Source: a bacterium (GTDB lineage Bacteria; SZUA-182; DTGQ01). From it: a DNA stretch of 20,435 nucleotides. Positions 8,534 through 20,085 of this stretch are shown piece after piece. Made by a program: the position numbers and the translations under genes. The stretch covers positions 1-20,435 of the forward strand of contig JBFLZW010000052.1 in the NCBI GenBank assembly GCA_040755755.1. Direction: 5' to 3'. Below the pieces are notes generated by a model. The model worked only from the letters and a program-made list of their open reading frames with translations. It had not been told where the DNA came from and ran no database searches. Position 1 is the stretch's first letter, and each line of letters starts with the position of its first letter.

Positions 8534-8589
8534 TCTCCGGGGCAGTGGCGGGGAGCCCCCTGCGGCACAGATGCCTGTGCCCATACGAT

Positions 8590-8619
8590 AAGGCGGGGTT
8601 GGAAAACCCCGCCTTTTTT
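8590..8619 (+). terminator. Strong intrinsic terminator of the secreted-protein gene
   Basis: AAGGCGGGGTT (8590-8600) and AACCCCGCCTT (8605-8615) form a perfect 11-bp GC-rich stem with a GGAA tetraloop, directly followed by a run of six T (8614-8619). Confidence 0.95.
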
Positions 8620-8820
8620 AGTGGGCGGATAAGTCCTCCCGGCTTTTAAAATATCCGGCCAGGTAGGGCCATTGCCGGATTCGGCCGATATAACCAATCA
8701 GTTATAAATACAAATACAAAAGATACCACACCAGACACAGAGGCACAGAGGTCCCCAGAGAAAAATAAAGAGAGATAGAGAAAAGCAGAGGGGAGCAGGT
8801 TATTCATTGGCAGCACCTCA

Positions 8821-10881
8821 ATGGATGAAAATTATCTCATGCAAGATTATCGTATGCTTCGCCAAGAGATGGTGGAAAATCAGTTGATGGCCCGTGGGAT
8901 CCTGGATCAGGCTGTTCTCGATGCCATGCGGAAGGTGCCGAGGGAGGAGTTTGTACCGGCGGGGATGGCGGAATTTGCCTATGAGGATACTCCCCTGCCC
9001 ATCGGCGAAGGACAGACCATCTCCCAGCCCTACATGGTAGCCCTGATGATCGAGAAACTGGAGCTTTCACCCGGTGACCGGGTTCTCGAAATCGGCACCG
9101 GATCGGGGTACGGGGCAGCGGTTCTCGCTCGGATCGCTGCCGAGGTCTACACCGTGGAGCGTTACCATGACCTGGCCGAGGCTGCACGGGAGCGCTTTCA
9201 GCAGCTCGGCTCTGCCAATATCCATGTCCTGCATGGTGACGGAACCCTTGGCTGGCCTGAGCATGCACCCTATAACGCTATTGTGGTAACTGCCGGTGGA
9301 CCGGATATCCCCGATCCTTTGCGTGAGCAGATGGCCGTGGGTGGCCGCATGGTTATTCCCGTAGGCCCGACGCCACGCCTCCAGGAGCTTGTCAGGGTGC
9401 GAAGGATCAGTGAATATGAATATCAGGAGGAGGGGCTTGGCTCTGTTCAGTTTGTACCCCTCATCGGCGCTGCCGGATGGGAAGGGCCGGGGAACGAAGG
9501 CAGCCATGAGTTGCCATCTGCGCCTCCCCGTCCATCCTTGCCCGAACTCATCCGCAAGGCTGCCGAGCCTGTCCTGTCCATCGTCCGGCCAGACCTTGGC
9601 GGGCTTCTTGAGCGGATCGGCGATGCGCGGGTGGTGCTCCTGGGAGATGCGAGCCATGGCACAGCCGAATTTTACGAGATGCGGGCCCGAATCACGCAGG
9701 AGCTCATAACCCGGCGGGATTTCACTATCGTGGCTGTGGAGGCTGACTGGCCCGATGCTGCCCGGATCGACCACTATGTGCGCAATACCCCGGTCATTGC
9801 TCCGGCAGACAAGCCTTTTTCCCGCTTCCCCACCTGGATGTGGGCCAATACCCAGATGCTGAGCTTTATCGAGTGGCTCAGGCAGTATAATCAGACCATC
9901 GAATCCCCGGAGCGGTCCGTTGGCTTCTATGGGCTTGACCTGTATAGCCTTTACACCTCCATTGCGGCTGCGCTCACCTGCCTGGACAATGTCGATCCTG
10001 AGACGGCGAGGGTAGCCCGGCATCGCTACGGATGCCTGCTGCCCTGGGAGCGGGACCCGGCTGCCTATGGCGCGGCAGCTTTAAGCGGGCGCTACCGGGA
10101 ATGCGAGCAGGAGGTGGTGGTCATGCTGCAGGACCTGATGAGAAAGCGTCTTGAGTATGCTGCCCGCAACGGCCAGTATTTCCTCAGCGTGGTTCAAAAG
10201 GCCCGGCTGATAGCCAATGCCGAGCGCTATTATCGGTTCATGTATTACGGCTCCGCGGCCTCCTGGAACCTCCGGGACAGTCACCTGTTCGAGACTCTGG
10301 ATATCCTGCTCAACTTTCGCGGACCTTCGTCCAGGGCCGTAGTCTGGGCCCATAATTCACACATCGGCGATGCTTCCGCTACCGAGATGGCAGCCAGGGG
10401 CGAATACAACCTGGGGCAGATGTGCCGGGCAAAATTTGGCAACGGAGCCTATCTGATCGGCTTTGGCACGGACCACGGCACCGTGGCCGCTGCCTCTGAC
10501 TGGGATGGACCGCTGGAGGTCAAGAATATCCTGCCTGCACACCCGAAAAGCTACGAATGGCTCTGCCATCATTCGGGGACCGAGGCCTTCCTGCTGCCCC
10601 TCAAGCCTGCTTCAGCCCAGAGCCGGATTCAAAGCCAGGGTCAAAGTCAGAGCCAGGGTCAGGTCCGGGACCAGGTCCGGAAAGAGCTGCTCAGACAGCG
10701 GCTTGAGCGCGCCATCGGCGTGATTTACCGACCTGAAACCGAACTCGAAAGCCACTACTTTCTGGCTTCGCTTCCCCGGCAGTTCGATGAATATATCTGG
10801 TTCGATGAAACCAGGGCTGTCACTCCGCTGAGCCCCGATGCAGGCAAAGGCATGCCCGAAACCTTTCCCTTCAGGGCTTAA
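8821..10881 (+). CDS. Fusion: protein-L-isoaspartate O-methyltransferase + erythromycin-esterase-like domain
   Basis: This 686-aa protein has two domains. Residues 10-215 are a protein-L-isoaspartate methyltransferase that would repair damaged Asp/Asn in proteins using SAM: VPREEFVP (39-46), TISQPY (66-71) and SAM loop LEIGTGSGYGAA (89-100). Residues 238-686 match the erythromycin esterase family: LLGDASHGTAEFYEMR (273-288, His279), VAVEADWPDAARIDHY (304-319) and VWAHNSHIGD (508-517). An Asp (276) replaces the usual Glu of LGExxHG. Such fusions exist in databases under double names, and the second domain's substrate is generally unproven, so macrolide resistance should not be assumed. A Gln/Gly-rich insert (601-620) interrupts the second domain. 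No strong ribosome-binding site is seen. ATG 8821 fits the family N-terminus, and ATG 8839 is possible. Confidence 0.9.
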   Translation: MDENYLMQDYRMLRQEMVENQLMARGILDQAVLDAMRKVPREEFVPAGMAEFAYEDTPLPIGEGQTISQPYMVALMIEKLELSPGDRVLEIGTGSGYGAAVLARIAAEVYTVERYHDLAEAARERFQQLGSANIHVLHGDGTLGWPEHAPYNAIVVTAGGPDIPDPLREQMAVGGRMVIPVGPTPRLQELVRVRRISEYEYQEEGLGSVQFVPLIGAAGWEGPGNEGSHELPSAPPRPSLPELIRKAAEPVLSIVRPDLGGLLERIGDARVVLLGDASHGTAEFYEMRARITQELITRRDFTIVAVEADWPDAARIDHYVRNTPVIAPADKPFSRFPTWMWANTQMLSFIEWLRQYNQTIESPERSVGFYGLDLYSLYTSIAAALTCLDNVDPETARVARHRYGCLLPWERDPAAYGAAALSGRYRECEQEVVVMLQDLMRKRLEYAARNGQYFLSVVQKARLIANAERYYRFMYYGSAASWNLRDSHLFETLDILLNFRGPSSRAVVWAHNSHIGDASATEMAARGEYNLGQMCRAKFGNGAYLIGFGTDHGTVAAASDWDGPLEVKNILPAHPKSYEWLCHHSGTEAFLLPLKPASAQSRIQSQGQSQSQGQVRDQVRKELLRQRLERAIGVIYRPETELESHYFLASLPRQFDEYIWFDETRAVTPLSPDAGKGMPETFPFRA

Positions 10882-10943
10882 TCCGGGAGAGTGTCCACGT
10901 CCGCCCCTGAACCCTCTCTTGCCGTGGGGTAAGGAGCCGCTCT

Positions 10944-11255
10944 TTACTCTCCGTTCTCCGGGAATTGTGCAAGCTCTCTGCTGATCGATTCTTCGTCCCG
11001 GTCAGTTTCCAGCAACTGAAACGCTGCATACCGGGGTTTCTTGTCTTCAAGCCTTTCAAGCCGCAATTCTATCGCCTTTCTTCGCGGATGGGTTTTGATC
11101 AAGGTATAGGCTCTGACTATATTAGCCATTGTTGCCTCCTGAAAGAGGAATTGCTCACCGCTTGAGGTTTCAATGACCGTGCGAAGGTGCCTGTGCCCGG
11201 CGGGAATGCCAACCATAACCCGCACTATCTCTGCATTGGGGAAATACCGCTTCAT
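10944..11255 (-). CDS. Small conserved-looking hypothetical protein
   Basis: This 103-aa soluble protein has no signal peptide or membrane helix. Residues 1-45 suggest a beta-rich start (IVRVMVGIPAGHRHLRTVIET, then EQFLFQEATMANIVRAYT), and a basic helical half follows (KTHPRRKAIELRLERLEDK). I do not recognise the family. It is probably real: AAGGAG lies 10 bases before the ATG on the - strand, the composition is that of a folded protein, and no better frame overlaps it. It is convergent with the methyltransferase/esterase fusion, the two stop codons being about 60 bases apart. Confidence 0.6.
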   Translation of the reverse strand: MKRYFPNAEIVRVMVGIPAGHRHLRTVIETSSGEQFLFQEATMANIVRAYTLIKTHPRRKAIELRLERLEDKKPRYAAFQLLETDRDEESISRELAQFPENGE

Positions 11256-11920
11256 TTGTTTTCATCTCCTTTCCTTCCCTTTTAAAGCAGCCCCACCCTA
11301 CATGTACTTGGTATTTCTCCCGCAGAGACGCAAAGGCGCAGAGGATATCATTTTCGGTTATTCTCTGCGCCTTTGCGTCTCTGCGGGAGATCATTAATAC
11401 ATGCATCGGATATGTGCCATTTATCCCATATGAGCGGAAGAGGTTATCAGTTACCGGTAAAATCACTGACCACTAACCACTGGCCACTGACCACTTTTCT
11501 TCTCTCCAGATTCTATCAAATGGAAGCTGGCATAGCCAGAGGTGAAACAGGAAGGGGGGAGAAAAACAGCGGTCCCAGGTAATTCATTCTCTCCTTGACC
11601 GCCGCCTTTCTGTTCAGCCGCACGGAGTCAGCTTTGACTGCCCCTTCCTGGGGAACAGCCGAAGATAACGACTAACGTACAGCCTCCCAGTCCGTACAGC
11701 GGACAGACAGGAGATTCTGAACTATCTGGGACCTGCTTAAGGATCGGAATAAGGGAAAGGAAGATACTACTTTTTACAACAAAAAAAGTACAAAAAAAGC
11801 TCAAAAATAGCGTAATAGATATCATCCAAAATACCGATTTATCTGTGTTATTGAGAGTAAAATCTTTGCCTTATACCAGGCAGGCACGAATAGCCGGGAG
11901 AAGGGGAAAAAGACTCGATT
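11256..11920. other. Repeat-rich intergenic region
   Basis: No gene is supported in these 665 bases. They hold a 22-base copy of a dispersed repeat (11284-11305), a perfect 28-bp inverted repeat (11316-11390), and a CCACTGRCC-type simple repeat (about 11463-11497). Near 11771-11810 there are A/T-rich runs of A. Short reading frames on either strand lack ribosome-binding sites and have non-protein-like composition. Confidence 0.7.
11316..11390. repeat. Perfect 28-bp inverted repeat, dispersed-repeat type
   Basis: The left arm (11316-11343) begins TCTCCCGCAGAGACGC and is exactly reverse-complementary to the right arm (11363-11390), which ends GCGTCTCTGCGGGAGA. The loop is 19 bases. Short CGCAGAGACGCAAAGG-type sequences are known as dispersed intergenic repeats in several bacterial genomes. 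A related fragment with CACAGAGG units lies near 8733-8752. Confidence 0.9.
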
Positions 11921-12964
11921 ATGGCCAGACCGAAGGTAAGGGTTCGTCTTTTTGAAGACCGCGATCAGGGGCGATGGGATGCCTATGTTCAGGGTTCTTC
12001 CCACTCCAGTCTCTATCATCTTTCGGCCTGGAAGAAGGTTTTGGAGACAAGCCTCGGCCATCCGGCTTATTACCTGTACGCAGAAGAGGGGGGCACGCTG
12101 GTCGGGCTTTTGCCCATGATTCATCTGAAAAGCTTCTTGTTTGGCTCCCGCCTCATCTCTCTGCCCTGCTTTAACTATGGCGGAGTGTGTGCCCATGATC
12201 CGGAGGTGCAGACGGCCCTGATCAGGGAAGGGATGGAGATTGCCCGATCAACCGGGGCCGCGCACCTTGAGCTGCGGCAGGCACAAACGTATCCCTGGGA
12301 GCTTGCGGTCAAACAGCACCGGGTGGCTATGCTCCTTGACCTGCCTGATTCGTGGTCAAATCTCTGGCAGGGTTTTTCTGCCAAACTGCGAAATCAGATA
12401 CGAAAAGGGGAAAAGCAGGACCTGGAGTTTCGCCAGGGAGTCGAGGAAGAACTGTCGTCGTTTTATCAGGTCTTTTCCCGAAACATGCGGGACCTTGGCA
12501 CGCCGGTTCAGGGAAAAGAATTTTTCCAGGCCATCATGACCACCTTTTCAGACCGGGCCAGAATCTGTACGGTCTACCAGGGATCAGAGCCACTGGCATC
12601 AGGACTGGTTCTTGGTTTCAAGCAGACCCTGGAAATCCCCTGGGCATCTTCGCTGCGCAAGTACAATTCCTCCTGTGCCAATATGCTCCTGTACTGGGGA
12701 GTGCTCCGGTATGCGTGCGATGCAGGATACAGACTTTTTGATTTTGGCCGTTCCGCTCCAGGCTCAGGCACATACAGGTTCAAAGAGCAATGGGGGGCAA
12801 AACCCCGTCCCCTGTACTGGTATTACTGGCTGCGAGAGGGTGAGAGCCTTCCGGCGCTCCATCCGGAAAATCCCCGGTACCATCTGGCCATCCAGATGTG
12901 GAAAAGGATGCCCCTGCCTCTCAGCCGGGCCCTTGGCCCCCTGCTGGCCAGGGGGATGCCGTAG
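11921..12964 (+). CDS. FemAB-like acyltransferase, PEP-CTERM/exosortase-system type
   Basis: This 347-aa cytoplasmic protein has the double GNAT fold of the FemAB/FmhB group. The first half includes SSLYHLSAWKKVLETSLGH (29-47) and LISLPCFNYGG (78-88). The second includes LRNQIRKGEK (156-165), the basic hinge of the group, and FDFGRSAPGSGTYRFKEQWG (273-292), a signature of the subfamily annotated as FemAB-related in exosortase (XrtA)/PEP-CTERM loci. That subfamily is thought to act on cell-surface or EPS building blocks; the exact donor and acceptor are unknown. AAGGGG lies upstream of the ATG. Simple repeats flank the gene on both sides in opposite orientation, and a DegT aminotransferase follows 119 bases later. 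No exosortase or PEP-CTERM protein lies in the window. Confidence 0.85.
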   Translation: MARPKVRVRLFEDRDQGRWDAYVQGSSHSSLYHLSAWKKVLETSLGHPAYYLYAEEGGTLVGLLPMIHLKSFLFGSRLISLPCFNYGGVCAHDPEVQTALIREGMEIARSTGAAHLELRQAQTYPWELAVKQHRVAMLLDLPDSWSNLWQGFSAKLRNQIRKGEKQDLEFRQGVEEELSSFYQVFSRNMRDLGTPVQGKEFFQAIMTTFSDRARICTVYQGSEPLASGLVLGFKQTLEIPWASSLRKYNSSCANMLLYWGVLRYACDAGYRLFDFGRSAPGSGTYRFKEQWGAKPRPLYWYYWLREGESLPALHPENPRYHLAIQMWKRMPLPLSRALGPLLARGMP

Positions 12965-12965
12965 A

Positions 12966-12982
12966 GTGGTCAGTGGCCAGTG
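12966..12982. repeat. 17-bp repeat copy, inverted relative to 11478-11494
   Basis: GTGGTCAGTGGCCAGTG here is the exact reverse complement of 11478-11494, so the FemAB gene sits between two inverted copies about 1.5 kb apart. The following bases up to 13080 continue as degenerate CAGTG and GGAGTC units, part of the simple-repeat background of this genome. Confidence 0.8.
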
Positions 12983-13083
12983 ATCAGTGAAGAAGGAGTT
13001 AGGAGTCGGGAGTCAAGGGGAAGTGATCAGTGCCCGGCGGTTAGTGAAAAGGAGTCGTGAGGCAGAAGCAAGGGTGAGGAATC

Positions 13084-14310
13084 ATGTGGATTCGGCGGAC
13101 TCTTCCTCCGACGGCAGCCCCGCTTTCCTTTCGGGATATCATCGGAGGATTGCAGGGATGGTTCGGTGAGGAGCGGGCAGTGGACAGACTGCGGCAGGAG
13201 CTGGCTGATTATTTCGGTGTACCTGACTGCTGGCTGATATCTTCGGGCAAAGCCGCCCTTACCCTGATCTTGAAGGCGATGCACAGTCTTTCACCACAGA
13301 AGAGCATGGTCCTGATTCCTGCCTATACCTGTTATTCGGTGGCCTCTTCCGTCGTCAAGGCAGGGCTGTCAGTAAACCTTGGCGACATTGATCCCCAGAC
13401 TCTGGATTTCGATTATTCCCGGCTTGAGTCCCAGGTGAGCGACCAGACACTCTGCCTGGTCGTCAATCATCTTCTGGGCAGGACGGCGGATGTGGACCGA
13501 TGTCTGCAGCTTGCCAGTTCACGGGGGATATGGGTGGTGGAAGATGCTGCTCAGGCCATGGGGACCTTCTCCAGGGGGAAACCGGCTGGCACCAGGGCAG
13601 ATGCCGGATTCTTCAGCCTTGGCCGGGGAAAGGTGATCTGCGCGGTCGAGGGGGGAGTGATCCTTACCCGAAATCCCGATCTGGCCGCGGCCGTGCAGCG
13701 AGAGTATCAGAATCTGCCTGTCTGCGGCTTCAGGGAAAAAGCGATCCTGCTGGCCAAGGCCATAGCCCTGACCTGCTTTTTGCGCCCTTCCCTCTACTGG
13801 CTGCCGGATCATCTGCCATTTCTCAAACTGGGCCAGACCGAGTTTTCCACCCGATTCGCTTTACATCGGATGAGCGGATTTCAGTGTGGTCTGATGCGAG
13901 GCTGGAAGCAGAAAATAGCCAGACTGAACCAGTCCCGGCTTGAGAGAACGCAATGCTACCGCAGGCTGCTTGCCGGGGCCGGGCTTTCTCCTTCGCAGAC
14001 CGGCCAGGATCATGATGGAGAAGCCGTGCCCCTTTTGCGCTTTCCCCTGATCCTGGAAAATACGAAGCAGCGGGACCAGCTTTATCGAAAAGCGCGGCAC
14101 CTCGGTTTAGGTATCAGCCGGATGTACCCGGATTCAATCGACAGCATTGATCAGCTCAAGGGCCAGGTATCCCGTGGCAATTATCCGGCAGCCAGCAGGC
14201 TGGCGAGGACCCTCCTCACCCTTCCCACCCATCCCCTGATTTCTCTGGCAGATCAGCGGCGCATCGCCCGCCTGATTACCTTATTCAGGGAAATAATTAC
14301 AAAAGAGTAA
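13084..14310 (+). CDS. DegT/DnrJ/EryC1/StrS-family PLP aminotransferase
   Basis: This 408-aa fold-type I PLP enzyme is of the sugar-aminotransferase superfamily, which usually adds an amino group to a keto-sugar nucleotide. Visible marks are the SSGKAALTLILKA phosphate-binding segment (53-65), IPAYTCYSVASSVVKAG (78-94), DIDPQTLDFD (101-110), VVEDAAQAMG with PLP-binding Asp154 (151-160), and Lys183 in SLGRGKVICAVEGG as the Schiff-base lysine. The segment around 210-260 is more hydrophobic (AILLAKAIALTCFLRPSLYW) than in textbook sugar aminotransferases, so membrane association or a lipid-linked substrate is possible. GTGAGGA lies only 3 bases before the ATG, so translation may be modest. It probably works with the preceding FemAB-like gene in envelope or glycan synthesis. 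Confidence 0.88.
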   Translation: MWIRRTLPPTAAPLSFRDIIGGLQGWFGEERAVDRLRQELADYFGVPDCWLISSGKAALTLILKAMHSLSPQKSMVLIPAYTCYSVASSVVKAGLSVNLGDIDPQTLDFDYSRLESQVSDQTLCLVVNHLLGRTADVDRCLQLASSRGIWVVEDAAQAMGTFSRGKPAGTRADAGFFSLGRGKVICAVEGGVILTRNPDLAAAVQREYQNLPVCGFREKAILLAKAIALTCFLRPSLYWLPDHLPFLKLGQTEFSTRFALHRMSGFQCGLMRGWKQKIARLNQSRLERTQCYRRLLAGAGLSPSQTGQDHDGEAVPLLRFPLILENTKQRDQLYRKARHLGLGISRMYPDSIDSIDQLKGQVSRGNYPAASRLARTLLTLPTHPLISLADQRRIARLITLFREIITKE

Positions 14311-14556
14311 TCAAATCACAAGATTGTAATCAGCGTAAAGACAATTTTGAAATCAAAGACGGCTTTTGTATTCGGCCCTATTCTGCAAAGCTGACCAATG
14401 AAGTTGAAAAGCAGCGATAAATCACCGTATTATCCAGAGAGAAGTGGAAAGCCTGTTTTAGCTGTCTCTGCGGAATGACTTATGCTGCTTATTGAAACCA
14501 AGAGAAAAACAATCCAGGTAAAAAAATCAATTAAAGAAGGGAGGATAAAAAATACC

Positions 14557-14976
14557 ATGTTCTTAAAACCGGGGAGAATTTGGTTGACAGCCGTGAATCC
14601 ATTCCATTCAGAAAAAGGTTTTACTCTTATCGAGCTGATGATCGCTCTGACCGTGCTGGCCATTTCCCTGCTGGGAACGGAAAGTGTCATCATCAGCATA
14701 GCCAGGAACAGGGCTTCAGCCCGGAAAGTGAGTATAGCGACCAATCTTTGTCAGGCGAAAATAGAAGAAATGAGGTCCCTGGGCTATAATGCGGTGGTCA
14801 ATTGTATTGAAGTCAATATTAATGAGAAAGGATTGTCCGGAGGAATCTTCAATCGCTATGTGGGCGTCAGCACAGGACCGGTGCCCAGGACCAAGGTGGT
14901 CCAGGTACTGGTCTGGTGGAAGGATTTGATGAGGTTCCGGAGCATATCCATGCGGACCATGGTTGCAGATATATGA
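14557..14976 (+). CDS. pilV: PilV/GspI-like minor pseudopilin
   Basis: This 139-aa prepilin has a 21-residue leader ending in Gly21, then mature Phe-Thr-Leu-Ile-Glu with Glu at position +5, then a hydrophobic helix (MIALTVLAISLLGTESVIISIA). A short globular part follows (CQAKIEEMRSLGYNAVV). This is the PilV/GspI pattern. After leader removal by prepilin peptidase it would insert in the inner membrane and join the pilus tip or initiation complex. I chose the ATG at 14557 because GGGAGGA lies 11-12 bases upstream and gives a normal leader. The frame is open from 14482 but without a ribosome-binding site. It is first in a four-gene minor-pilin operon. Confidence 0.88.
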   Translation: MFLKPGRIWLTAVNPFHSEKGFTLIELMIALTVLAISLLGTESVIISIARNRASARKVSIATNLCQAKIEEMRSLGYNAVVNCIEVNINEKGLSGGIFNRYVGVSTGPVPRTKVVQVLVWWKDLMRFRSISMRTMVADI

Positions 14977-14984
14977 TTTTGGAT

Positions 14985-15053
14985 AGGAGACAGGAGTCAG
15001 GAGTCAGCATTCAGAATAAAAGCTTTTCTCCTGACTCCTGACTCCTGTCTCCT
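14985..15053. repeat. 23-bp perfect inverted repeat made of GACTCCT-type units between pilV and pilW
   Basis: Positions 14985-15007 are the exact reverse complement of 15031-15053, with a 23-base loop. The arms consist of GGAGTCA and GGAGACA heptamers (CTCCTGA on the other arm), and further GACTCCT units continue to about 15066. The structure lies in the 110-base gap between two co-directional pilin genes, so the mRNA would carry a very stable stem. No U-tract follows, so it is not a standard terminator. Confidence 0.92.
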
Positions 15054-15086
15054 GACTCCTGACTCCTTAATAACGAGGTATGTCTT

Positions 15087-17252
15087 ATGACTAAACCTGT
15101 TCAGCCGATTTTTTCCTTCGATGCCGGTGGCTTCACCATGGTGGAATTGCTGATTGCCACCGCTATCCTGCTGCTTGCTCTTTCGGCAGCCTTTGGGATG
15201 ATGCTTTCCCAGAAAAAAGCCTACAAGGATGAGAATGAGCTGATCGAGATGTCTCAAGGCACACGGGCTTCCGTGGATATCCTGCTCAGGGACCTTCGTC
15301 ATGCCGGTTACAAGGTTCTGGAATCAGATTATCTTGGATCACTCTCCGACTGGGTTTCCAGTGAATATCTGCCCACCTACCCTGCTACTGTCAGTCTGGC
15401 TTCGAATAGCTGTCCGATAATTACCCAGGGTGAAGGTACGAATCCTGACATGATCACCCTCTTTATCGCGGACCTCAAAGAGAATGCCCTGGTAGCCGAT
15501 GCAGCCAGCGGCAGCACAACGATTACCCTTGATCCCAATGCTCCCGGTTTTTCCGGCAGTACCAAGTTCAGGATCAACGATGTCATCCGCCTCGGTGATC
15601 ATACCGAATTTGCCAGGATTACCGGCGTTTCGGGCAACTGCCTGACCATCGATACCAACCCCACCGCGAATGGAAATCAGGGGCTGGCGGAGGCTCATCC
15701 TGCCGGTGAACCCATCAGGGAAGTCAATGTAGTGACCTATGCCGTAATCAATGAGGGCAACGATCCATCTCATGAGCATCATACGGCAGGACATCCTGTG
15801 CTTAAAAGAAAGCTGAACGATACCGACTACGCGGATGTGGCCGAAGACGTGGAGGACATGCAGATCATACCGTATGCTCCCCCGCGCTACAAGCTGCAAT
15901 TGATCAGCCGCACTGCAAGCAGGGGTGATTTCGCCAAAGTGTCTGCGGATGGATACCGGCGGACCGAGCTGCTGGCTGACTTCCGGCTGAGGAACTACGT
16001 AAAGTCAAGCTGCCTGCCGGCAGAAACACCGGTTATAACCTCTCTGACCGGACTTAATTCATCAACGCCCTGTAACATCCAGGTCGCCTGGACGGCAGCT
16101 ACCAGGAACATTAAAGGCCAAACCCTCACTTCCGAGTGTGCGGTAACCGACTATGTCGTCACCTATGCTCCCACACCAGGCACCCGGTTCTACACAGCCT
16201 ATCCGGGCAACACTACCAGTTGCTCGCTCAACATCAGCGAGATTCTGCGAGATGCCAATTATACAACCAACACCTACTATATCAGTGTAGCAGCGGTCAA
16301 CGCCGGCGGCCTGGGCGCCTATTCCGCAGAGCAAACCATCAGCGATACCAGTCCCCCGTCAACCCCTGCGAATCTGACAGCCAGCGTCAGTACCACCGAC
16401 ATCAATGATGCAGCCATCCCCGGCCATTCGATTACTCTCAATTGGGTCGGTAATCCGGAATGTGACGTCGTGGCCTACCGCATCTATCGGGGGACCACGT
16501 CCGGCGGTCCCTATACACTGATAGCCAGTGACCCCAATATTAATGTCGGGACCACGCAGAACTATACTTACCAGGATATCAACCTTGCCTGCAACACCTA
16601 TTACTATGTGGTCAAGGCATATGACCTGCGGTATGAAAGTCCCGGCTCCAGTGAAGCATTCGCTACGGTAATTGACAGCAATGCTCCTGTCGGGCCGACC
16701 GGCTTTTCCGCTGCCCCTGCGGGCACTACGGTGACCTTCAACTGGACGACATCGATCGATGATCCAGCGAATGGCTGGGGAGATGACGATGTCGTCGGAT
16801 ATCATATTTATGCCTTGTTTAATGGTGCCGAGATTCTGCTGGACAGCGCAAATCCGGCAGGCCATACTACCAAGACCCTTGACAATCCGCTTGGATACAC
16901 CAACTTCGGCATCAAAGCCATAGACATATGCGGCAATACCAGCATCATGATCACTCAGGCAAGTTGCCCGAATCCACCCTCGGTCACCATCATCAGCCCA
17001 TCCTCTGGAGATACGGTCGCCGGAGCTGTCACCATTTATGGATGGGCAAGCTCCACCCAGTCCCTGGAATGGGTGAAGTTAAAAATCAATGGCGGACCCT
17101 GGATACTGGCTGAGGGGACCGCTACCTGGAGCTACACCTGGAATACATTAACGCTCGCTAACGGATCCTATACCATAACCGTTAAAGCCCTGGATGCCAA
17201 TGACTGCTCCACAGATGCATCAATCAATGTTGTGGTCAGCAACGGGCCGTAA
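15087..17252 (+). CDS. pilW: Giant PilW-like minor pilin with fibronectin-III and Ig-like domains
   Basis: This 721-aa protein starts with a short class III leader cut after Gly15, mature F-T-M-V-E (Glu20 is +5) and a hydrophobic helix to about 40. Residues 40-305 are PilW-like (MSQGTRASVDILLRDLRHAGYK at 55-76). Unlike ordinary PilW (about 250-350 aa), three fibronectin-III-like domains follow (about 315-418, 423-527, 533-625; repeated Y-x-I-Y-R/A and YYYVVKAYD-type strands), then an Ig-like domain (628-717; SVTIISPSSGDTVAGAVTI, NGSYTITVKALD). Such domains are common in adhesins, so a pilus-tip adhesin is inferred, perhaps doing the job of PilY1, which is absent here. GAGG lies 9 bases before the ATG. 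Confidence 0.9.
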   Translation: MTKPVQPIFSFDAGGFTMVELLIATAILLLALSAAFGMMLSQKKAYKDENELIEMSQGTRASVDILLRDLRHAGYKVLESDYLGSLSDWVSSEYLPTYPATVSLASNSCPIITQGEGTNPDMITLFIADLKENALVADAASGSTTITLDPNAPGFSGSTKFRINDVIRLGDHTEFARITGVSGNCLTIDTNPTANGNQGLAEAHPAGEPIREVNVVTYAVINEGNDPSHEHHTAGHPVLKRKLNDTDYADVAEDVEDMQIIPYAPPRYKLQLISRTASRGDFAKVSADGYRRTELLADFRLRNYVKSSCLPAETPVITSLTGLNSSTPCNIQVAWTAATRNIKGQTLTSECAVTDYVVTYAPTPGTRFYTAYPGNTTSCSLNISEILRDANYTTNTYYISVAAVNAGGLGAYSAEQTISDTSPPSTPANLTASVSTTDINDAAIPGHSITLNWVGNPECDVVAYRIYRGTTSGGPYTLIASDPNINVGTTQNYTYQDINLACNTYYYVVKAYDLRYESPGSSEAFATVIDSNAPVGPTGFSAAPAGTTVTFNWTTSIDDPANGWGDDDVVGYHIYALFNGAEILLDSANPAGHTTKTLDNPLGYTNFGIKAIDICGNTSIMITQASCPNPPSVTIISPSSGDTVAGAVTIYGWASSTQSLEWVKLKINGGPWILAEGTATWSYTWNTLTLANGSYTITVKALDANDCSTDASINVVVSNGP

Positions 17253-17289
17253 GGCAGGGAACTGCAATTTCAAAGGAGGACTTAAGCCA

Positions 17290-18378
17290 ATGACTGAGTA
17301 TAGATCATTGCCGGGAAGAGTCCTGCGGCTTTTTCAGGCAGCCTGGCTTTGTCAGGATAACCAAGGAATGGCCATGGTTATCGTCCTGTCCGTGATGGCG
17401 GCTCTTTTTGCGATCGGGACAGCATCCTTGACCAATTCGGCCACGGAAAACAAGATCAGTCAGAACTACCAGAAAAGCGTTCGGGCCTTTTATGACTGTG
17501 AGGCTGGAATAGCCGAGGGTATGGCCAAAATCAAATCCGGGACGGCTGTTATAGAACAGGATGGCGATCCCAACTGGATATCGACCACCCAATCATACCT
17601 GTTCAAATATCGATACCATACTACATATGATGCCGCTAACCGCACTTACACCATAACTTCCGAGGGAAAGGATCCCTCGCAAACCGCCAACCGCCGGATC
17701 GTGGCTGAAATGAAGCGCATTTTCAGTGCCGGTGATATCAGATCGCCGGTTTATTGCGGCTCGGGAGAGACCAAGGGTAACGCTAACTCGATCCGGGGTG
17801 ATTCCGTCTCTCCTGCCTGGGCGAGTGATGGCGATTCCTCGAACGAGGGCAGTGTTCCCTGTGTTACTACGCCAAATCCCTACGTCAGCGCGACCAACCC
17901 TCTGAAGGTGGACCAGACCCAGCTTTTTACCGCAGATCCCAACAAGGTTGACTACGATGTCGATCCCATTGATCTTGTGGCCATGGCCAATTTTTACAAA
18001 GACCTTCCCCCGGACATGACCAGCATCCCGACCGGTACGACAGTCACTATCGGGAGTGAGACGGATACCAAGGTAGTCTACATCAACGGGAATCAAACCA
18101 TTGCGGGAGATAAATACGGCTATGGCATCCTGGTGGTCACCGGTGACCTCCATATTTCGGGACAGCTTCACTGGAACGGTATAGTCATCGTTCTGGGCAA
18201 CAACCTTATCCAGACCGGCGGTGGAGTCAGCGGCCTCCAGGTTACCGGAGCGGTCCTGACTCCGAACCATTTTGAAATCAGGGGAAATGCGGATATCCAA
18301 TGGTCAGCCGATGTGGTGAAAAAGGTCATCAATAATGCCGGCGATCCCCTGAAGGTTGTCAGTTGGAAGGAGGAATGA
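17290..18378 (+). CDS. pilX: PilX-like minor pilin/pilus assembly protein
   Basis: This 362-aa protein has an N-terminal PilX-type segment: a 26-residue lead ending DNQG, then MAMVIVLSVMAALFAIGTASLTNSATENKISQNYQ, the usual PilX helix without the +5 Glu. A typical FYDCEAGIAEGMAKIKSG stretch follows (68-85). The long C-terminal part (about 160-362) is beta-rich, with YGYGILVVTGDLHISGQLHWNGIVIVLG-type turns suggesting a beta-helix or sandwich. This makes it longer than classical PilX. The ATG at 17290 is preceded by AAAGGAGG. The frame is open upstream into pilW but without support. It probably associates with the PilV- and PilW-like proteins at the pilus tip. Its stop codon abuts the next gene. 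Confidence 0.85.
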   Translation: MTEYRSLPGRVLRLFQAAWLCQDNQGMAMVIVLSVMAALFAIGTASLTNSATENKISQNYQKSVRAFYDCEAGIAEGMAKIKSGTAVIEQDGDPNWISTTQSYLFKYRYHTTYDAANRTYTITSEGKDPSQTANRRIVAEMKRIFSAGDIRSPVYCGSGETKGNANSIRGDSVSPAWASDGDSSNEGSVPCVTTPNPYVSATNPLKVDQTQLFTADPNKVDYDVDPIDLVAMANFYKDLPPDMTSIPTGTTVTIGSETDTKVVYINGNQTIAGDKYGYGILVVTGDLHISGQLHWNGIVIVLGNNLIQTGGGVSGLQVTGAVLTPNHFEIRGNADIQWSADVVKKVINNAGDPLKVVSWKEE

Positions 18379-18380
18379 GT

Positions 18381-18881
18381 ATGAACACCCGGTTATTATC
18401 CCATCAGGCCGCCTTCACGATGACCGAAGTCCTGATAGTTACCTCGATAGTTGTAATTTTGGTTACTCTTGGCGGGCCAAGCATCGTTCACATGATGCCT
18501 CAAATCAGGCTCAACAGTACTGCTCAGAATCTGGTGAATGACCTGCAGTTTGCCCGCATGCGTTCAATCACAACCTCCAAAGAATACCGGCTGAGCTTTG
18601 ATGCCTCTGCGGAAAGCTACCGGATAGAAGAAGGCAATAAATCAGAAGGATCGAGCTGGCCAGGCACTTTGGTTGATCTGGAAAGAAGGCTGCATGACAG
18701 TTCCAACCTGTATTATCAAAAAAATATCGATATCAACAGCGTAACCCAGGATCCGGTTTTCAATCCAAAGGGGTTATGTTCAGCGGTCTCGACGATCAAG
18801 ATTCAGAACAGTGATGGAGGCAAAAAAAAGATCGTCATTAACCTGGCAGGAGGGGTTAAAGTTTATGATACCTGGGATTAG
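18381..18881 (+). CDS. fimT: FimT/GspH-like pseudopilin
   Basis: This 166-aa pseudopilin has an 11-residue leader, MNTRLLSHQAA, cut before mature F-T-M-T-E (Glu at +5), then VLIVTSIVVILVTLGGPSIVHM and the FimT/GspH marker NLVNDLQFARMRSITTSKEYRLSF. The residue before the cut is Ala instead of the usual Gly. FimT/GspH proteins are minor components; some FimT proteins bind DNA for uptake, and this one has a basic patch (GGKKKIVI near 150) but no proven role. AAGGAGG lies 7 bases before ATG 18381. An ATG at 18375 overlaps the preceding stop codon but is too near the ribosome-binding site. It is the last gene of the pilin operon. Confidence 0.85.
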   Translation: MNTRLLSHQAAFTMTEVLIVTSIVVILVTLGGPSIVHMMPQIRLNSTAQNLVNDLQFARMRSITTSKEYRLSFDASAESYRIEEGNKSEGSSWPGTLVDLERRLHDSSNLYYQKNIDINSVTQDPVFNPKGLCSAVSTIKIQNSDGGKKKIVINLAGGVKVYDTWD

Positions 18882-19859: not shown

Positions 19860-19890
19860 CAAAGATCTCCATTTCTTAATAATTTATTCG

Positions 19891-20034
19891 CTACCGGACA
19901 CTTTTTTTTCAATTAATCAACCGCGAATGCACACGAATAGACGCTAATAAATTCTTTTGATTTGCCTTCATTATCGAGTCCCCTTTGTTCAGTTCGCGTT
20001 CATTCGCGGTTGTTACCTCAAAAGTGTCCGGTAG
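19891..20034. mobile_element. 144-bp MITE-like palindromic element
   Basis: CTACCGGACACTTTT (19891-19905) is the exact reverse complement of 20020-20034, giving 15-bp terminal inverted repeats. Nested inside, AACCGCGAATG (19919-19929) pairs with CATTCGCGGTT (20001-20011). The interior carries GAATAGACGC- and TTCGCGTTCATTCGCGG-like units seen as dispersed repeats in other genomes. No transposase or reading frame is present. No target duplication is obvious at the edges. Either a non-autonomous miniature transposon or an old insertion-sequence remnant fits. Confidence 0.6.
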
Positions 20035-20085
20035 AGAGAAGTGCCGAAACTCTTTGAAAATATATTGACTCTTCCCCCCGTTGTA

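Follow-up and report, generated by a model that had tools for sequence, protein, structure and literature searches.

How does a type IV pilus of the diderm kind arrange its tip when its minor-pilin operon contains no PilY1, and one of its pilins carries a long arm of non-pilin domains? For the type IVa pili of diderms, PilY1 is regarded as the standard protein at the tip. In the preliminary description of the window, which is the whole 20,435-nucleotide stretch analysed here, the extended PilW-like protein was taken for a self-contained, pilin-anchored adhesin of unusual design. The answer to which we incline, with rather more belief than doubt, is that the modular PilW and an apparently also modular PilX supply the ligand-binding and capping work of PilY1 at the pilus tip. 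The features concerned are as follows.

14557–14976, + strand: PilV-like minor prepilin; the frame opens at 14482, with the likely start at ATG 14557 (N_methyl 34.8 bits; partial TIGR02523 PilV match below cut-off)
15087–17252, + strand: PilW-type minor pilin with a C-terminal arm of three FN3 domains and one Ig domain, 721 aa (single open frame; seven full-length copies in four genomes)
15087–15131, + strand: PilW prepilin leader, residues 1–15, cleavage expected after Gly15, Glu at mature +5 (sequence; N_methyl)
15132–16010, + strand: pilin helix and PilW core, residues 16–308 (hhalign against short PilW proteins, 99.9%, residues 12–305)
16020–16346, + strand: FN3-1, residues 312–420, the best conserved module (83% between orthologues; profile, AF2, and fold match)
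16347–16676, + strand: FN3-2, residues 421–530 (profile match to 3mpc, E 8.6e-6; AF2)
16677–16967, + strand: FN3-3, residues 531–627 (AF2 fold matches)
16968–17243, + strand: Big_7 Ig domain, residues 628–719, distal end, the least conserved module (Pfam; fold match)
17290–18378, + strand: PilX-like cap pilin, 362 aa, without Glu5, probable β-solenoid inserted at about residues 145–345 (about 17722–18324) (PilX_N; fold matches)
18381–18881, + strand: FimT/GspH-type minor prepilin; the frame opens at 18363, with the likely start at ATG 18381 (GspH Pfam 24.5 bits, ComGD 47 bits)

The start of pilX next to the window pilW is at 17290, not at 17194. A PilV-like prepilin is kept upstream of every complete long PilW. 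FimT, PilV, and PilX are all encoded with the long PilW in the window (14557–18881) and in the C67 and G001 clusters; a FimT adjoining the long PilW was not seen at G002 C107 or G003 C347.

Two repeats were also observed in the window. The interval between pilV and pilW (14985–15067) holds a tandem and inverted repeat (AGGAGTCAGGAGTC / CTGACTCCTGACTCCT), whose unit recurs elsewhere in the source genome (L018, L021). MITE-like nested inverted repeats (TCGCTACCGGACACTTTT ... AAAAGTGTCCGGTAGAGA; CAACCGCGAATG...) lie at 19888–20037.

Domain architecture of the window PilW

The pilW frame begins with ATG, is preceded by a GAGG Shine-Dalgarno sequence about 8 nt upstream, and runs through 721 codons with zero internal stops. 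The prepilin motif, AGG↓FTMVELLIA, scores 21.3 bits with N_methyl, barely above the cut-off of 21.2. The class III signal/pilin motif by which modular pilins are recognised (Raynaud et al. 2021) is present as GG↓FTMVE, and the extra non-pilin module is represented by Big_7 (residues 631–699, 55 bits, E 1e-14) and by FN3 domains found via profile and fold. The core was assigned to PilW by comparing its profile with that of short PilW proteins: residues 12–305 aligned with six of them at 99.9% probability (hhalign, E 1.3e-34). Pfam PilW PF16074 gave no match in the window protein at E up to 1; the short relative at L060:5311–6204 reaches 40.4 bits against that family.

From the single window sequence, Pfam fn3 remained below its cut-off (15.9 versus 25 bits). 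The family profile of the long PilW proteins matched FN3 structures (3mpc, E 8.6e-6; Dscam, titin). In the AF2 model of the full protein, residues 312–719 form four β-sandwiches with pLDDT values mostly of 70–91. The modelled arm resembles fibronectin 7-B-8-9 (3t1w) with a Z score of 13.6 over 349 residues; the rmsd of 14.8 extends across several domains, and is this large because the domains bend. The last domain of the arm matches Ig domains with a Z score of 13.8 and an rmsd of 1.7 over 90 residues. The model of the core was weak (pLDDT mostly <55, pTM 0.36), so the geometry of the arm is not given by it. The three FN3 domains and one Ig domain of the preliminary description are thus borne out by the Big_7 match, the family profile, and the four sandwiches; likewise, the intact frame and the prepilin motif agree with its view of an adhesin-type arm on an intact pilin.

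Conservation of the long PilW and the search for PilY1

A search for other very long PilW proteins found the architecture kept in all seven full-length copies of the four genomes examined (G000–G003) from this family of uncultured bacteria. Two copies each are present in G000, G001, and G002, and one complete and one truncated copy in G003. The seven proteins have 721–933 residues and are 51–72% identical to the window copy; those other than the window type carry one further C-terminal Ig-like domain. The second long PilW of the source genome, C67, shows 59% identity over residues 12–719, and among the 16 N_methyl matches in this genome the two long PilW genes are the only open frames above about 300 aa. 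In the core tree, the window copy pairs with G002 C107, and C67 pairs with G002 C122. This means that the two copies predate the split of those two species. The named relatives are MAGs, namely HOT.CON.50 and CSMAG genomes labelled Pseudomonadota.

Between the window pilW and its orthologue, the core had a dN/dS ratio of 0.14, FN3-1 one of 0.06, and FN3-3 and the Ig domain ratios of 0.26–0.30; FN3-2 was left out because its dS was saturated. Purifying selection acts on every module where the ratio is computable (0.06–0.30) and, judged from these values, the arm appears to be functional. Identity to the orthologue drops from 83% in FN3-1 to 62% in FN3-3 and the Ig domain, as would be expected if the stalk is conserved and the outer end varies. 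The outer end thus seems to evolve fastest, as a ligand-facing end might.

No PilY1 was found in the four family genomes (drafts of 88–640 contigs), either by PF05567 or by A2, a profile made from four PilY1 proteins including both from G004. In three genomes from other phyla, the A2 profile gives matches of 1e-30 to 1e-76. The absence of PilY1 from the operon, as described earlier, therefore extends to the genome as searched with both profiles. PilT is present, and retractile pili are therefore likely.

Several candidates were rejected as PilY1. Weak A2 matches in the source genome (E 0.016–0.08) extend over no more than tens of residues; the match at L065, which was inspected, sits among PQQ-type propeller proteins. 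The large genes beside the second minor-pilin cluster (L017, L023) do not match A2; one encodes a C25 peptidase and the other lacks a Pfam match. The former, at L017:5206–8280 (−) and L023:5063–8161, is gingipain-like, contains cohesin and dockerin, and is divergent from the second cluster. The latter is a large secreted repeat protein of 1,200–1,400 aa at L017:1–3610 (−) and L023:9505–13752; its L023 copy was the one scanned against Pfam.

Two PilY1 proteins were found by PF05567 in G004, the sole genome examined from the same order outside the family. The operon of this sister-family genome reads FimT-PilV-PilW (311 aa)-PilX (210 aa)-PilY1 (1083 aa); another set contains a PilW of 298 aa and a PilY1 of 1519 aa. 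The 311-aa PilW is the closest short relative of the window PilW. This state, a short PilW with PilY1, fits a replacement of PilY1 by the arm; the loss of PilY1 and the gain of the arm in the window family count as one evolutionary event. The other possibility considered at the outset, that a PilY1 encoded elsewhere and short PilW paralogues do this job, found no support: in addition to the negative searches, short J-type pilins of the source genome are confined to three further type IV filament clusters, each of which has machinery of its own.

Proposed arrangement at the pilus tip

The FimU-PilV-PilW-PilX complex is located at the pilus tip (PMC7541494; PMC10191384). In M. xanthus, the minor pilins, together with PilY1, prime assembly and exit at the tip, and a proposed model has PilX and PilW at the top (PMC7541494). 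In the window family, the PilW-type core would be cut by prepilin peptidase. From the known behaviour of the family we infer that PilW would then become part, with FimT, PilV, and PilX, of the pilus-initiating complex, and so reach the tip. There it would extend a slim rod made up of three FN3 domains with the Ig domain at the end, presumably thin enough to exit via the PilQ secretin. The cap pilin PilX, with its putative ComZ-like β-solenoid, would stand beside this rod. The modules of the two pilins together would most likely do the ligand binding and tip capping of PilY1. The arm would be adhesive, and may compensate for the missing protein.

It should be mentioned that M. xanthus PilW3 bearing the bulky sfGFP was incorporated into pili, but motility was not supported (PMC7541494). 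A large addition to PilW is therefore not automatically tolerated. This result suggests that the shape of the graft matters, and the FN3 row would be slim, unlike the bulky graft.

PilX seems to be a second modular pilin. PilX_N scored 18.6 bits in the window protein, below the cut-off, and above the cut-off in its paralogue. The top PDB match of the PilX model by Foldseek was ComZ (6qvi, E 2.3e-3). This match is moderate (Z 7.0 and rmsd 9.8 over residues 56–362), and the N-terminal half of the model is of low confidence. Ice-binding solenoids matched over residues 145–345, and pilin folds spanned residues 61–362. In short, the window PilX looks like a β-solenoid inside a pilin sheet, on the plan of ComZ. 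The shared plan would be that of a K-type pilin with a β-solenoid ahead of the last pilin strand, the solenoid being similar to ice-binding proteins (PDB 6qvi; PMC6561018). The putative solenoid of the window PilX has about 200 residues versus about 380 in ComZ, its start is recognisable as PilX_N, and no similarity between the two was detected at the sequence level. The lack of Glu5 in PilX is that of a capping pilin (PMC10191384). Since PilX also appears modular, the view of PilW as a self-contained adhesin is not supported.

FN3 and Ig domains are frequently mere spacers, arrays of them are commonly stalks, and no ligand site could be identified in the PilW arm. The arm might accordingly serve as a structural spacer, or as an adaptor that carries some other secreted protein, with no surface binding of its own. 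CofB with CofJ provides a precedent for such an adaptor (PMC8179133, PMC10191384), and the second cluster of the genus lies opposite the secreted C25 peptidase with cohesin and dockerin. However, no secreted partner is conserved beside all copies, and none was seen at the window locus, in G001, or in G003; we consider this explanation unlikely. Still less likely is a DNA-uptake pilus, in which PilX would be a ComZ-like DNA receptor assisted by the PilW arm. The PilX model matches ComZ of Thermus thermophilus end to end, its solenoid, like that of ComZ, matches ice-binding proteins, and ComZ binds DNA (PMC6561018); against this, the match is moderate in fold and undetected in sequence, and a solenoid fold alone does not imply DNA binding. 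There is little probability that the cluster forms a type II secretion-like pseudopilus whose PilW arm recognises exported proteins in the periplasm. Although FimT-PilV-PilW-PilX correspond to GspH-I-J-K, and several T2SS-like clusters are present in the source genome, these clusters have their own H-I-J-K-type pilins beside their machinery. The window cluster, as is often the case for minor-pilin clusters of T4P, stands by itself, and the homologue in the sister family is linked to PilY1, which is a hallmark of T4aP. Finally, the window is an entire draft contig, but two separate genes, or an assembly or fusion artefact that put a pilin and an unrelated adhesin gene together, can practically be dismissed: the frame is intact, the same junction recurs in the seven full-length copies, which come from four genomes and align over their whole length, and the conserved architecture and purifying selection argue that the long PilW is neither an artefact nor a one-off.

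Known systems and a wider survey

The favoured reading, joint work of modular PilW and PilX at the tip, can be set against known systems. Modular pilins, defined in 2021, comprise more than 1,200 proteins in 264 architectures, and FN3 (IPR003961) is among their 15 commonest grafts (PMC8179133). The type example is PilB (vWA) of Streptococcus sanguinis, together with PilC (lectin) (Raynaud 2021, PMC8179133; PMC9934059); in this T4P, PilABC, with two modular members, takes the place of the PilHIJK set (PMC10191384). The window PilW shares with these pilins a C-terminal non-pilin module and a proposed exposure at the tip. It differs in its carrier, a PilW (J-type) in an ordinary diderm FimT-V-W-X set, in its graft of three FN3 domains and Big_7, and in the PilY1-linked short relative that persists in the sister family. 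With canonical T4aP PilW (PF16074; M. xanthus, P. aeruginosa) it has in common the core (99.9%), the place between PilV and PilX, and Glu5, but it has about 400 additional residues and no PilY1, and falls under the PF16074 threshold. CofB of the enterotoxigenic E. coli CFA/III pilus is also a tip minor pilin with added C-terminal β-domains (PMC8179133), whereas it belongs to a T4b system, is trimeric, has other domains, and carries the secreted CofJ. The PilY1/PilC tip adhesin likewise shows a module at the pilus tip, the job proposed for the window PilW; unlike it, PilY1/PilC is not a pilin, contains a β-propeller, and was not found in the window family.

The kind of protein, a modular pilin, is therefore already known. 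A literature search returned only modular pilins and ComZ, and neither an FN3-bearing PilW nor a PilY1-less modular tip. The design, earlier called unusual, is less so because modular pilins are widespread and FN3 grafts common (PMC8179133); what stands is the variant, a PilW carrier in a diderm FimT-V-W-X set with an apparently modular PilX beside it, PilY1 gone, and the old state in the sister family, which is undescribed as far as searched.

A PF16074 PilW is present in 119 of the 395 genomes from the phylum to which G012, a Desulfobacteraceae record, belongs. The frames measure 198–548 aa except for two giants, of 1,974 aa in G098 and 1,617 aa in G299, the latter with Big_1 and Big_2 domains. 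The giants are homologous (31% over 1,647 columns) and were therefore counted as one lineage; their arms are unlike the window arm. With G407 left out, PF05567 detected PilY1 in 108 of 116 genomes with normal PilW versus 0 of 2 with giant PilW (Fisher p 0.0065). Three of the eight exceptions (G157, G300, G315) have an adjacent PilY1 found by A2, which gives 111 of 116, and in two more the contigs end just beyond PilX. PF05567 alone was rejected as proof of PilY1 absence, having overlooked these three adjacent genes. For the giant-PilW genomes, the A2 search covered their own contigs, in G098 entirely and in G299 over 56 kb.

PilX has 150–351 aa (median 210) in the PilY1-linked operons read, versus 340–712 aa in PilY1-less operons (window family, G098, G299, G057, and the Zixiibacteriota genome G010). 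This trend is a lead rather than a law, since the lengths were read off ORF lists manually and no more than four lineages are involved. At L081, two successive giant PilW-like prepilins of 1,617 and >826 aa (8608–13461 and 15522–18001) follow a 712-aa PilX; the first giant contains bacterial Ig domains, and PF05567 finds no PilY1 in that genome. In G057, each of two minor-pilin sets contains an enlarged PilX, of 405 and 593 aa (L084:5025–6242 and 8570–10351), and PilY1 was not detected. Tentatively, and with more doubt than for the window family itself, a PilY1-free tip might have recurred in several lineages, enlarged top minor pilins having taken over the capping and adhesive roles of PilY1. 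PilX would then bear a solenoid or another enlargement and PilW an arm of FN3/Ig or Big_1/Big_2 domains, and a coupling of PilY1 loss to enlargement is equally tentative.

A family with FimT-V-W-X and PilT, no detectable PilY1, and modular top pilins offers a natural test of which tip parts are interchangeable. The rule it suggests, a larger PilX or PilW where PilY1 is lacking, can be checked in every genome. The window PilW shows what size of graft pili apparently tolerate when the rod is thin. If true, an exchange in which enlarged pilins at the tip stand in for PilY1 would add something new to the known grafting of modules onto pilins.
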